From a virus, in IMG/VR virus record IMGVR_UViG_3300043411_001243, positions 1-20,343 of that record: DNA of 20,343 bases; one strand, written 5' to 3'. Positions 1,544 through 19,057 of this stretch are shown one piece after another (the stretch's first letter is position 1; every line of letters begins with the position of its first letter). The position numbers and the translations under genes are program-made. The notes under the pieces are model-generated. The model was given only the letters and a program-made list of their open reading frames with translations, did not search any database and had not been told where the DNA came from.

Positions 1544-1969
1544 CTAGCGGGCGATGAAGCAGGGGATGTAGGCGGGTTCGGAGTACAGCACGATCGTCTC
1601 GTCGCCCCACCGGTGGTGGATGGTGAGCCACGTCTGCGTCACGAACCACTGCTTCGGGAACGTGTAGGTGTAGTCGCACTCTCGCAGGTTGCGGAAGTCC
1701 TTGTCGGCGTTCGCCCCCTCGGACGAGCACCCGTCGTGGGTGTAGTTCGAGGCGCTCGGCGTCCACCGAAGCAGGCACGTCATCCACAGCGTGGCGTTGG
1801 TGTGGTACTCCCCGGTGGTGTACCCGGTCTGCCCGAGCGGGTGCCCGAACCAGTTGATCGGGGCGTACGGCCCGGTGTTCCAGGCGTGGACCTCGACCGC
1901 CCCCGAGGGGGCGGCCGTCCCGAAGACCAGGGTTGCTGCGAGCAGCAGAGCTGCCAGGAGGCGCTTCAT
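1544..1969 (-). CDS. Secreted small protein with signal peptide and four cysteines
   Basis: 141 residues. The start chosen is the ATG at 1969, not the longer in-frame ORF from 2005, because GGAAAGG lies just upstream and the new N-terminus is a classic Sec signal: MKR, then a hydrophobic run (LLAALLLAATLVFGTAA), then a small-residue cleavage region near PSGA. No lipobox Cys and no membrane anchor follow. The mature part (about 117 residues) is Trp/Tyr rich with Cys at 65, 81, 98 and 137, enough for two disulfides. It is the last gene of the leftward operon, next to a holin-like gene. A short stretch, RWGDETIVL (120-128), resembles RYGDETATVL in the LPETG protein at 16804-17421. The family is not recognised. 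An envelope or extracellular role is inferred. Confidence 0.8.
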   Translation of the reverse strand: MKRLLAALLLAATLVFGTAAPSGAVEVHAWNTGPYAPINWFGHPLGQTGYTTGEYHTNATLWMTCLLRWTPSASNYTHDGCSSEGANADKDFRNLRECDYTYTFPKQWFVTQTWLTIHHRWGDETIVLYSEPAYIPCFIAR

Positions 1970-2001
1970 GTTGCCTTTCCGTGCCCGGGCGGTTCCCGAG
2001 G

Positions 2002-2217
2002 TCACACTTCGGCCGAGGCGTCGGCCAGCGCCTTGCGGCGCTTGATGAACTCCTTGACCGGCACGATGGCGGCGGCCAGGGCGCCCACGGCGGCGGTGCG
2101 CAGCGTGGACGTGTCGGTCAGGACGAGCACGGCCACGAACGCTTCTGCGAAGGTCCAGGCCGCACGCTCGGCGGTGTTCAGGAGGTCGGAGGTGATGGAG
2201 GTGGAGGTGGTGCTCAT
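2002..2217 (-). CDS. Small two-helix membrane protein, putative r1t-like holin
   Basis: 71 residues from the ATG at 2217. After a polar N-terminus come two hydrophobic segments, about residues 20-34 (WTFAEAFVAVLVLTD) and 38-55 (LRTAAVGALAAAIVPVKE), then a charged tail (FIKRRKALADASAEV). The layout AERAxxTFxxAFxAVL ... AAxxALAAAxxxVKxF matches small r1t-type actinophage holins as I know them. It sits between a phosphoesterase and a secreted protein. No endolysin gene is visible in the window, so the lysis role rests on topology only. The gap to the next gene downstream is 32 bp. Confidence 0.6.
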   Translation of the reverse strand: MSTTSTSITSDLLNTAERAAWTFAEAFVAVLVLTDTSTLRTAAVGALAAAIVPVKEFIKRRKALADASAEV

Positions 2218-3328: not shown

Positions 3329-3595
3329 TCAGTGTCGGTGGAGCTGGTCTTCGAGGAGGTCGTGTCGTCGGTTGTGCTCATCTCGCCAGGTCAGGAACTC
3401 CTGGCGATGGGCTCGCATTTCCGCCAGTGCTCGTGCATTCAGCGATGTGGCGGTGGAGACGGCCTTCCGGAGCTGCTGGTTGCTCTCCTCCTGCCGGGCC
3501 GAGGCCGCCGTGATGCGATCTGCGATCGCCTTGCTGACGGCCAGGATCGCCCCGACAATGGCGGGGTACACGAGGTACTGGAGGTGGAAGTTCAC
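3329..3595 (-). CDS. Small protein with one N-terminal TM helix and a coiled-coil tail
   Basis: 88 residues from a GTG at 3595 that shares GTGA with the stop of the primase-helicase gene. A hydrophobic segment (about residues 7-24, YLVYPAIVGAILAVSKAI) is followed by a long charged helical part rich in Gln, Arg and Glu, predicted coiled coil, ending HRRH-like. The TM plus coiled-coil design is seen in lysis accessory proteins and second holins of actinophages, but also in membrane tethers for replication. No family is recognised. It is translationally coupled to the upstream gene, with 8 bp to the phosphoesterase start. Confidence 0.75.
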   Translation of the reverse strand: MNFHLQYLVYPAIVGAILAVSKAIADRITAASARQEESNQQLRKAVSTATSLNARALAEMRAHRQEFLTWRDEHNRRHDLLEDQLHRH

Positions 3596-13766: not shown

Positions 13767-14332
13767 CGGTTCTGGAGGTAGCCCTCGACGTTGTCGAGCA
13801 GGTCCTCGACCGTGCCGGAGTTGTTGAACCCGACGGTGAACAGGTGCCGCTGGAGGATGCCGTTGATGCTCTCGGCCTCCTCGTCGTTCGCCGGCCCGAA
13901 GCCCCTGCGGGTGACGTACCACACCTCACCGCCGAAGCGGAGGATGCGGGCGGCCTCGTTCGGGTAGCGGACGTCGGTGATGACGAGCGGGGCGTGGTCG
14001 TCCGGCAGAGCGTCGGGCAGCACGGCGTCGACCCAGGTGTTCGGGCCGAGCACGTCCCGCACGCCCTTGCCGAGCGCCACCAGGAACCGGCGGATCTCAG
14101 GGAACTCGTCCTTGGCCTTCTCGTAGCCGTGCGAGGCGAGGGCCTCGGAGTAGCGGATGTGGGTGATGAAGTCCTCGTCGGACACCCACGGGTCCAGGTC
14201 CTCGGCCAGCAGGCGCAGCTTGTCTGCGAACGCCTGGCGCTCGTAGCCGTGCCGCTCGGCCAGGTAGGCGCCGACTGTGTCCTTGCCGGTGCGGGCGAAG
14301 CCGCACAGGCCGATGATGCGGGGGCCCGTCAC
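13763..14332 (-). CDS. Deoxynucleoside monophosphate kinase-like protein
   Basis: 189 residues from a GTG at 14332 (GTGA with the DUF4406 stop). The P-loop is GFARTGKDT (11-19), the K-D-T form typical of phage dNMP kinases of the T4 gene 1 type. A second block, VITDVRYPNEAARI (117-130), matches the conserved DVRxxNE segment of that family. It should phosphorylate dNMPs to dNDPs and so supply the polymerase. It is followed directly by the zinc-ribbon and polymerase genes. Confidence 0.85.
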   Translation of the reverse strand: MTGPRIIGLCGFARTGKDTVGAYLAERHGYERQAFADKLRLLAEDLDPWVSDEDFITHIRYSEALASHGYEKAKDEFPEIRRFLVALGKGVRDVLGPNTWVDAVLPDALPDDHAPLVITDVRYPNEAARILRFGGEVWYVTRRGFGPANDEEAESINGILQRHLFTVGFNNSGTVEDLLDNVEGYLQNR

Positions 14333-14832: not shown

Positions 14833-15041
14833 AGGACCTCGATCTCGGTGCCGTCGGTGTTGACGAGGGTGCAGGCGGCGACGTCCTGGCCGGTGAGGTA
14901 GGCGAGGGCGAAGGACTCGACGGCGAGGTAGTCGAGGTCGGTGAGGGCCTGCCCATCCTCCCGGCCGAACTGGGCGTCGAGGCCGACGAAGGCGCCGTAC
15001 TGGTCGGTCTTGGGGTCGAGGGTGACGAGGATCTTGCTCAT
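14829..15041 (-). CDS. Hypothetical small acidic protein
   Basis: 70 residues, ATG at 15041, overlapping the WhiB stop (ATGA) and ending in GTGA with the DUF4406 gene. Starts MSKILVTLDPKTDQYGAF and ends GTEIEVL. The mix of strand-helix-strand looks like a small alpha/beta domain with an acidic surface. No family recognised. Confidence 0.72.
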   Translation of the reverse strand: MSKILVTLDPKTDQYGAFVGLDAQFGREDGQALTDLDYLAVESFALAYLTGQDVAACTLVNTDGTEIEVL

Positions 15042-15274
15042 GGCGCTAGGCCCTTCTGCCGCAGTCTGCGGCGGTCGGCGGGGCTGGTTCCGCCCCACAC
15101 TCCGTACGGTTCCCGGCGCTGGAGGGCGCCGGCGAGACACTCGAACTGTGCAGGGCACTGGAAGCAGATGCCCTTGGCTCTCTCTTGCAGGTCGTGGGTC
15201 TCCCCGAAGAAGACCGGGACCAGCTCGGGCTGGCCGGCGCAGGCCCCGACCTCATGGGGTTGGGGGGAAGGCAA
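15038..15274 (-). CDS. whiB: WhiB-family Fe-S transcriptional regulator
   Basis: 78 residues. Cys12, then C37-x2-C40-x5-C46 (GICFQCPAQFEC), gives the four ligands of the WhiB 4Fe-4S cluster. GVWGG (58-62) and the basic tail DRRRLRQ are the DNA-binding turn and C-terminus of the family. The start is a TTG, supported by a GGAGGTG seven bases upstream, and no ATG or GTG exists in frame before Cys12. WhiB proteins bind the principal sigma factor and change promoter choice; phage copies can repress host genes or block superinfection. The 5' end overlaps the upstream gene by 23 bp. A 22-bp perfect palindrome lies about 90 bp upstream of the start. WhiB marks an actinobacterial host. Confidence 0.95.
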   Translation of the reverse strand: MPSPQPHEVGACAGQPELVPVFFGETHDLQERAKGICFQCPAQFECLAGALQRREPYGVWGGTSPADRRRLRQKGLAP

Positions 15275-16652: not shown

Positions 16653-16804
16653 AGCTCCTCGCTCGCTGCTCGGGCGGCTCGGTAGTACCGGGCCAGCGCA
16701 CGGTCGCTGGGGGACTCGTACCACTCCGGCGGGCGCTCGTAGGAGCGGGACCGGGACAGGTCCTGCACCTCCTCGTCGGTGAGGGTGACGGCGATGAGGG
16801 GCAT
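16649..16804 (-). CDS. 51-residue hypothetical protein
   Basis: Found by reading the gap after the LPETG gene. ATG at 16804 shares its A with the LPETG gene's TGA (TGATG), and its own TGA overlaps the next GTG (GTGA). It starts MPLIAVTLTDEEVQDL, close to the start of the 17418-17789 protein (MPDITLSLTDDEIEAC). The rest is charged with Tyr and Arg (SRSYERPPEWYES, ALARYYRAA). Function unknown. Confidence 0.7.
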   Translation of the reverse strand: MPLIAVTLTDEEVQDLSRSRSYERPPEWYESPSDRALARYYRAARAASEEL

Positions 16805-17421
16805 CAGCGGGCCTTTCGGTTCAGCAGCTTGCGGGTGAGGATCTCGACGGCGCCGCCGAGCGTGAGCACGGAGAGGCCGATGAACGCCAGCGTCGAGCCG
16901 GTGCCCGTCTCGGGGAGCCGCTCCCGCTCAGGGGCGGGCGCCGGTGCGGGCGGCACCGGCTCCGGGGCGGGTGCGGGCGGCGGGTCCGGCACGCAGCGGG
17001 GGTCGTCGTGGTCGTAGATGCCCTTGCCGAAGATCAGGCAGACGGGCGTGGCCGGCGGGCCGGCCGTCGTGGGGGGCGGCGGGGCCGCCGTGGTGGGCGG
17101 AGGCGGCGGGGGCGTGGCGGCCTTGCAGATGGTCCAGCTCGTGAGCGGGCCGTCGGCCAGGAACCGGTACGGGCCCGGCGCCGGGCGCAGCACGGTGGCG
17201 GTCTCGTCGCCGTAGCGCAGCACGAGGCGGGAGTAGTGGTCACCGTGCCGGGGGGACCAGGCCGGGTCGAACGGCCGCAGGTGGACCGTCGTCTCGTCGG
17301 CCCAGCCGTGCGGCGTGTCCCCGGGGGCGGGGTGGTCGTAGCACTCCTCCGCCGGGGCGGCCTGGGCCGCCGCCGGGGAGGGGAGCAGGAGGAGCGCCGT
17401 GAGGGCGGCGGAGGCGATCAC
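16804..17421 (-). CDS. LPXTG cell-wall-anchored surface protein, phage-encoded
   Basis: 205 residues from a GTG at 17421 (GTGA with the upstream stop; no other start is in frame for over 40 codons). Residues 2-19 are a hydrophobic signal-like segment (IASAALTALLLLPSPAAA) ending in AQA, although it lacks the usual N-terminal Lys/Arg. The mature part has DETTVHLRP (42-50) and DETATVLRP (72-80), a 30-residue repeat. Cys lie at 27, 99, 128 and 143. Two Pro-rich wall-spanning linkers (about 104-127 and 145-165) follow. The end is a complete sortase signal: LPETG (169-173), a hydrophobic segment (STLAFIGLSVLTLGGAV) and a basic tail RKLLNRKAR. It should be exported, cut and attached to the peptidoglycan by host sortase. 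The role may be superinfection exclusion or surface change. Confidence 0.9.
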   Translation of the reverse strand: MIASAALTALLLLPSPAAAQAAPAEECYDHPAPGDTPHGWADETTVHLRPFDPAWSPRHGDHYSRLVLRYGDETATVLRPAPGPYRFLADGPLTSWTICKAATPPPPPPTTAAPPPPTTAGPPATPVCLIFGKGIYDHDDPRCVPDPPPAPAPEPVPPAPAPAPERERLPETGTGSTLAFIGLSVLTLGGAVEILTRKLLNRKAR

Positions 17422-17789
17422 TGGACCGTCTCGAAGCGGTAGTAGCCGGTCTCGTAGGTGCAGATGTCGCCATCGGCGTGCTCGACGATGAGGTAGTCGA
17501 GGCCACGCTTCGGGGAGCTGTGGTAGGCGATGACCGTGCAGCGCCGGCGGTAGGGCAGGGCGGCGTTTCGTTCCTCGGGGCCAAGCCTGACGGTTGACGC
17601 CGCCTCGACGACCCGCACGAGGTCGCCCTTCTTCAGCGTCGACGGGTCGAGGGCCCTGGGGACGGCGATGGCGGCCTGGTGCAGCTTCTGCTTGACCCGG
17701 GCGAGCGGGAGCTGACCAGGGAAGAGGCCCCAATTGGTGCGGCAGGCCTCGATCTCGTCGTCGGTCAGGGACAGGGTGATGTCGGGCAC
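17418..17789 (-). CDS. Hypothetical protein with C-terminal SH3/KOW-like barrel
   Basis: 123 residues from a GTG at 17789 preceded by GAGGAG. The N-terminus MPDITLSLTDDEIEA resembles that of the 51-residue protein at 16649-16804. The second half, KKGDLVRVVEAA followed by RCTVIAYHSS, LDYLIVEHADGD and ETGYYRFETV, reads as a five-strand small barrel. The next gene upstream (17800-18030) has a similar GDRVRTYHRG start of a barrel. Function unknown. Confidence 0.72.
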   Translation of the reverse strand: MPDITLSLTDDEIEACRTNWGLFPGQLPLARVKQKLHQAAIAVPRALDPSTLKKGDLVRVVEAASTVRLGPEERNAALPYRRRCTVIAYHSSPKRGLDYLIVEHADGDICTYETGYYRFETVQ

Positions 17790-18648: not shown

Positions 18649-18678
18649 ATGGTAGCAGGGTAGGTGTCAGTAGCGCAA
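18649..18678 (-). promoter_or_regulatory. Candidate promoter for a leaderless transcript
   Basis: TTGCGC (18678-18673), an 18-base spacer and TACCAT (18654-18649) fit the loose actinobacterial -35/-10. The expected first base, seven after the -10, is the A of the ATG at 18642, and no ribosome site is present. A perfect palindrome (18679-18707) abuts the -35. Confidence 0.4.
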
Positions 18679-18707
18679 CGATCCCGCAAGCCGAGCTTGC
18701 GGGATCG
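18679..18707. promoter_or_regulatory. Perfect 12-bp inverted repeat, probable operator or hairpin
   Basis: CGATCCCGCAAG, five bases (CCGAG), then CTTGCGGGATCG. The arms match at all 12 positions and the element touches the candidate -35. It could be a repressor or activator site, or, if transcribed from upstream, a terminator-like hairpin without a U-tract. The flanking bases give another TGGGA copy (GAGTGGGAC). Confidence 0.65.
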
Positions 18708-18720
18708 AGTGGGACGGCTT

Positions 18721-18899
18721 GTGGGATGGTCGGGCAGGGCGTCTGACCAGGGGAAACACCAACAGAGGCACCACAGAATCCCACAATCCCACAACATAAC
18801 AGTTTCAGAGTTCTTATAAAGAACTCAATAGGTTGCACTACTACAACCTATTCAGTTCCTTGAACGCAGAAACGGTCATGGGACGTGGGATTGTGGGAT
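18721..18899. repeat. Five GTGGGAT heptamers (iteron-like)
   Basis: GTGGGAT occurs on the plus strand at 18721-18727, 18885-18891 and 18893-18899, and on the minus strand at 18778-18784 and 18786-18792. The two tandem pairs have an 8-bp period and face each other across the AT-rich core. TTGTGGGATGG is a direct repeat at 18719-18729 and 18891-18901. Iterons of this kind bind initiators, repressors or integrase arms. Confidence 0.7.
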
Positions 18900-18922
18900 G
18901 GCGGGAGCGTTTCCCCTGGTCA
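18744..18922. other. Nested long imperfect palindrome with AT-rich core
   Basis: Matching arms share a centre near 18838: TGACCAGGGGAAAC (18744-18757) with GTTTCCCCTGGTCA (18909-18922); ATCCCACAATCCCAC (18778-18792) with its complement (18885-18899); ACAGTTTC (18799-18806) with GAAACGGT (18869-18876, one G-T pair); and AATAGGTTG (18827-18835) with CAACCTATT (18844-18852). The core 18793-18872 has 28 G/C in 80 bases, in a genome of about 70% GC. The outer right arm includes the stop codon of the 45-residue gene. No DnaA box was seen. Possible roles are a replication origin, an operator array or an attachment site. Confidence 0.75.
18808..18865. other. Mutually exclusive hairpins in the AT-rich core
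   Basis: GAGTTCTT (18808-18815) pairs with AAGAACTC (18819-18826). GAACT (18821-18825) can instead join AATAGGTTG to pair with CAACCTATT and AGTTC (18854-18858), giving 14 pairs with one C-C mismatch. GTTC (18855-18858) can also pair with GAAC (18862-18865). If transcribed, these structures compete, like an attenuator; as DNA they are cruciform-prone. Confidence 0.5.
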
Positions 18923-19057
18923 GGGGCGGTTTCTGGCCGGCGGGTTCTGGGAGGCCGGCTGGTAGGCACGGCCGCAGGCGCAGGTGAGGTAGCCGTAGCG
19001 GTCGGCGTACAGCGTGGTGTCGGGGTGGCAGGGGCTCGGGCGGTCGGTGTCGGTCAC
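18920..19057 (-). CDS. 45-residue putative zinc-binding protein
   Basis: GTG at 19057 in a GTGA overlap. The protein has CH (10-11) and CAC (26-28) with aromatic residues between (LYADRYGYLT), a possible CH/CxC metal site, and ends in a Pro/Asn/Arg tail. It is the last gene before the control region; its stop codon lies in the outer arm of the palindrome. Function unknown. Confidence 0.62.
   Translation of the reverse strand: MTDTDRPSPCHPDTTLYADRYGYLTCACGRAYQPASQNPPARNRP

Follow-up and report, generated by a model that had tools for sequence, protein, structure and literature searches.

The locus described here raises the question whether a phage can encode a protein that the sortase of its host would attach to the cell wall, and what such a protein would do on the surface of an infected cell. 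The gene in question encodes a protein with an LPETG motif near its C-terminus and lies in a linear IMG/VR virus record of 20,343 bases, which is called the window below and probably represents a phage fragment.

The window phage and the operon of the LPETG gene

Profile searches of the window identified a family A DNA polymerase, a Toprim/AAA primase-helicase, an SNF2 helicase and a WhiB-family regulator, as well as an AAA_24 ATPase, a dNMP kinase and a DUF4406 protein; the matches to a metallophosphatase and to an r1t-like holin were both weak. Judged by this gene set, the window belongs to a tailed phage of an actinobacterium. An actinobacterial host is indicated by the WhiB gene and by the WhiB genes in 6 of the 26 related viral records searched. 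There was no close DNA relative of the window among the named phages, and the nearest DNA polymerases, at 31-34% identity, come from actinophages, among them DSL-LC01, GMA2 and, from Microbacterium, Big4, Zooman and A3Wally. The search for prophages in GTDB, which could point to the host, returned just distant primase matches in unrelated phyla. An odd detail, the two phages being otherwise unrelated, is a stretch of 34 bases (window 13949-13982) that stands unchanged in Thermus phage Lalka27a, within its dNMP kinase gene.

The frame of the LPETG gene is the only one of the six at this place with a positive codon score, and its G+C content at the three codon positions (0.738/0.631/0.966) resembles that of other phage genes. 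The GTG start overlaps the stop of the upstream gene as GTGA, and the stop overlaps the ATG of the downstream gene as TGATG. Both the phage-like codon statistics and the overlaps on the two sides thus speak against a chimera and against a spurious open reading frame: the LPETG gene is a real phage gene within a phage operon. The two small genes that flank it have similar N-termini (MPLIAVTLTDEEV in the 51-aa product and MPDITLSLTDDEI in the 123-aa product; DNA repeat D1), which suggests a duplicated leader or domain. The LPETG gene belongs to a group of small genes that precede the replication genes, from which we infer that it is expressed early. No sigma-70-like promoter was found. Between early genes the window also contains an AT-rich intergenic stretch (18660-18925), a candidate origin or operator region, in which perfect inverted repeats are nested (CTGACCAGGGGAAAC/GTTTCCCCTGGTCAG at 18743/18909 and ATCCCACAATCCCAC/GTGGGATTGTGGGAT at 18778/18885); a hairpin lies at 18818-18861.

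No homologue of the LPETG protein was found in named phages (tblastn, E up to 1), in IMG/VR or in GTDB genomes, and searches of Pfam, PHROGs and NCBIfam yielded no homologous family. Weak matches to ABC transporters among plasmids and to PprA in the PDB (E 0.2) were taken as chance. A tblastn search with the tail only is uninformative, because even an exact 38-aa tail finds itself only at E = 1. As far as the collections searched show, the gene would be a lone acquisition or innovation of the window phage. Wall-anchored proteins are mostly encoded by hosts, and together with the orphan status of the LPETG protein across all viral sets searched this could be taken to mean that the gene is a recently captured host surface gene without a selected role, or that it was joined to the phage by an assembly error. 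Such an origin is nevertheless very improbable: the start and stop overlaps and the codon bias bind the gene to the phage, it stands alone within a row of phage genes, and the search of GTDB genomes found no relative.

Anatomy of the LPETG protein

The preliminary description of this DNA had assigned to the protein a signal-like N-terminus, two Pro-rich linkers, LPETG, a hydrophobic segment and a basic tail. All of these parts are seen in the product of the gene (Table 1), so that the description is confirmed. The signal-like N-terminus has a hydrophobic core with a possible AXA cleavage site after A19 or A21, but no basic residue precedes the core when translation begins at the GTG start. The only nearby in-frame start that could give one is a CTG at 17463, 14 codons upstream.

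Table 1. Position of the LPETG gene, of the parts of its product and of the genes discussed in the text (window coordinates unless an accession or locus is given).
Feature	Position	Strand	Basis or remark
LPETG protein gene, 205 aa	16804..17421	-	GTG start 17421, TGA stop 16806-16804; open frame, codon score, GC3
Signal-peptide-like residues 1-21 (MIASAALTALLLLPSPAAAQA)	17359..17421	-	hydropathy 1.71 over residues 1-19
Predicted displayed domain, residues 22-101, ~80 aa, seven beta strands	17119..17358	-	AlphaFold2, isolated domain
Pro/Thr-rich linker 1, residues 102-126	17044..17118	-	sequence; low pLDDT
Loop bracketed by Cys128 and Cys143 (CLIFGKGIYDHDDPRC), between the linkers	16990..17043	-	sequence
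Pro/Ala/Glu-rich linker 2, residues 145-168	16918..16989	-	sequence
LPETG sorting motif, residues 169-173	16903..16917	-	sequence; TIGR01167 match 16852-16917
Hydrophobic segment, residues 176-195	16837..16896	-	hydropathy up to 1.89; helix 178-204 in full-length model
Basic tail RKLLNRKAR, residues 197-205	16807..16833	-	sequence
Upstream small gene, 123 aa, orphan	17418..17789	-	ORF list, codon-position G+C; relatives searched, none found
Downstream small gene, 51 aa	16649..16804	-	ORF list; DNA repeat D1
WhiB-family regulator	15038..15274	-	Pfam PF02467, E 1.3e-16; same strand, downstream of LPETG gene
LAXTG-type family loci	ON637770 148029-150284 (L114:3030-5285); L115-L121; L133		annotated hypothetical or membrane proteins

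The part of the protein that would be displayed was modelled by AlphaFold2 as an isolated domain. The best of five models reached a pLDDT of 81.3 and a pTM of 0.72, the other models having a pLDDT of 41-53. Cys27 and Cys99 lie near the two ends of the domain and could possibly form a disulfide. The fold search with this model gave generic beta-sandwiches as the best matches (Z up to 4.8), which is a common arrangement and reveals no clear relative. The full-length model is of low confidence (pLDDT 52.6, with low values in linker 1), and the fold search with it produced no match. A repeat of 30 residues had been proposed to form the displayed domain. This idea is not upheld by our data, as the similarity is near chance (of 300 shuffles, 10 reached the 9-mer match and 22 a 30-mer match) and the model shows the domain as one unit of seven strands.

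The sorting signal and similar proteins in other actinophages

After LPETG the protein continues with some 20 hydrophobic residues and ends in a basic tail. In the motif, the hydrophobic segment, the basic tail, their C-terminal position and the Pro-rich linker the protein is like the Gram-positive proteins with LPXTG sorting signals (TIGR01167/PF00746). It differs from them in being encoded by a phage, in its missing basic n-region and in its borderline fit to both profiles: NCBIfam TIGR01167 (LPXTG anchor) gives 16.6 bits with the 41-aa tail against a cut-off of 15.9 and falls to 15.3 bits, under the cut-off, with the 59-aa tail or in a six-frame search, and Pfam PF00746 gives 14.3, under its cut-off of 20. 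It should be added that TIGR01167 is unspecific in six-frame searches of whole genomes, where it had matches in 14 of 14 control genomes, Gram-negatives included. The LPXTG profile revealed no comparable sorting signal in 31 whole related records beside the window, which have primase-helicase or other replication genes in common with it. One related record, G005, has a TIGR01167 match over the cut-off, which covers only model positions 7-32, misses the motif and was taken as false; among the ORFs of 60-150 aa with LPXT in G005 none has a sorting signal.

The borderline scores would also suit a secreted phage protein that is held in the membrane and is not a sortase substrate, with LPETG standing fortuitously before a C-terminal transmembrane helix. 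The exact LPETGTG is indeed present by chance in unrelated phage proteins (the GC-rich pattern was found in 11 other stretches of IMG/VR, all in other proteins and nine apparently from one family), and the LPETG protein has no homologues through which conservation of the sorting signal could appear. However, none of these 11 sites precedes a hydrophobic segment and a basic tail, although in two cases the ORF ends 25-44 residues further on. Therefore, it is the placement and not the bare motif that carries the signal. In the LPETG protein the spacing of the motif, the length of the helix and the basic tail all fit, and the Pro-rich linkers are of the wall-spanning kind typical of sortase substrates. 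Among 300,000 shuffled versions of the protein, 73 had a relaxed sorting signal and only 2 combined it with an N-terminal hydrophobic core. A relaxed six-frame screen of 1.17 Mb, comprising the window and viral and genome loci, turned up four other matches, all of them lacking LPXTG itself. We consider a fortuitous motif unlikely and regard the sortase substrate as the best reading of the anatomy.

This reading gains from the finding that proteins of the same layout recur in unrelated actinophages. When 15 named actinophages were searched with the profile, one match exceeded the cut-off, gp260 of Microbacterium phage Big4. This protein of 751 aa, annotated as 'hypothetical protein', has MKRFLKAPAAFALALVLTFSGAGMASA as its signal peptide, contains an Excalibur domain and ends in LAATGAELPLGITAGAILTLLIGGALIARRKKVAAE. 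Its relatives are encoded by A3Wally, Zooman, Pumpernickel, Magritte, Micrococcus phage Kurnik, SM23 and FuzzBuster, by one further record and by one IMG/VR contig (L133). Of the eight named proteins, Big4 gp260 included, seven have LAATG, LAQTG or LATTG followed by a hydrophobic segment and an Arg/Lys tail, as does L133. LAXTG is a sorting motif of the class E type. In Microbacterium phage SM23 (L120, ~3360-3440) the frame changes within the LATTG signal, so that its hydrophobic segment and Arg-rich tail are encoded in a different frame. L133 and six of the eight named proteins begin with what looks like a signal peptide; the proteins of Pumpernickel and SM23 have none at their annotated starts, possibly due to the choice of start. 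Between Big4 and A3Wally the ectodomains are 82% identical and the sorting signals just 41%, yet the motif, the segment and the tail are kept in both, as would be expected if anchoring itself were selected.

The LPETG protein has in common with the Big4 family that it is encoded by a phage and combines a Pro-rich stalk with a sortase-type motif, a hydrophobic segment and a basic tail at the C-terminus, and with a putative N-terminal signal peptide, such as most members of the family have. It is no member of the family, as it has no homologous ectodomain (tblastn, E up to 1). The Big4-type proteins, from phages of Microbacterium and Micrococcus, differ by ectodomains of 458-877 aa unrelated to the window protein and by LAXTG in place of LPETG. 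Searches for a sortase came back empty for the window, for 15 related records and for 11 named actinophages, and none turned up in the phages of the Big4 family, which implies a sortase of the host.

Both the anatomy and the LAXTG proteins of unrelated actinophages thus strengthen the original reading of the gene, and we consider it likely that the LPETG protein is a phage-encoded substrate of a host sortase. Actinophages probably contain at least two independent cases of such substrates, the LPETG protein, an orphan in sequence, being one. We lean slightly towards the wider view that several unrelated actinophage lineages have repeatedly recruited host sortases, through LPXTG or LAXTG, for display on the wall, in which case the window protein would be one independent instance of a general and hitherto undescribed strategy. 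The special connection with WhiB that had been suggested for this locus was not supported. WhiB follows 1.5 kb downstream of the LPETG gene, after about seven small genes, and the pairing, thought to be possibly undescribed, occurs in named phages as well (WhiB is present in 5 of the 9 records with a LAXTG protein). Since 711 of 2951 actinophage genomes (24%) encode WhiB (PMC8612146), its presence together with a sortase-type substrate needs no special link.

Possible role at the cell surface

From this layout we infer the following course of events. The LPETG gene would be translated together with its small neighbours of the early region through coupled starts, and the protein would be exported by Sec. 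The C-terminal hydrophobic segment and the basic tail would then hold it in the membrane until the host sortase cuts LPETG between T and G and joins the protein to peptidoglycan precursors. Thereby the small beta domain, bridged by its putative disulfide, would be shown beyond the wall on the Pro-rich stalk and could change the surface of the host cell during infection.

As to the purpose of such display, we tentatively favour as the foremost role superinfection exclusion, in which the domain would mask a phage receptor or compete for it, because prophage surface proteins with such an effect are known (reviewed in PMC9863714). The likeness to them lies in the proposed outcome, a phage protein on the surface of the infected cell that would hinder adsorption. 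No integrase was seen within the 20-kb fragment. The preliminary description had allowed for display during infection or lysogeny. The Microbacterium phages surveyed are lytic for the most part (PMC7302621), and therefore display need not serve lysogeny. The main rival to exclusion is a role as an adhesin or a host-modifying protein, equally anchored by sortase, whose domain would bind glycans, surfaces or cells and promote aggregation, biofilm formation or spread. Among the many modules that the beta-sandwich resembles are carbohydrate-binding and Ig/FNIII-like ones, and Big4 gp260, a protein of like layout, carries the Excalibur domain. However, the structural matches, all with Z < 5, are too weak for assigning a ligand, and no sequence relative of the domain was found, so that we hold this role to be possible but rather doubtful.

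No description of sortase substrates encoded by actinophages was found in the open-access literature searched, which is weak evidence of novelty, as most subscription journals lay outside its scope. If actinophages do use host sortases for display, infection would change the surface that other phages and neighbouring cells meet, and a set of phage proteins now annotated as 'hypothetical' or 'membrane' would acquire both a location and a role that can be tested. The phages of Microbacterium foliorum make the idea testable in a cultured host. Finally, the window encodes a second predicted secreted protein (1544-2005, minus strand) with the signal peptide MKRLLAALLLAATLVFGTAAPSGA and without a family match, whose gene adjoins the weak r1t-holin-like ORF (2002-2214).
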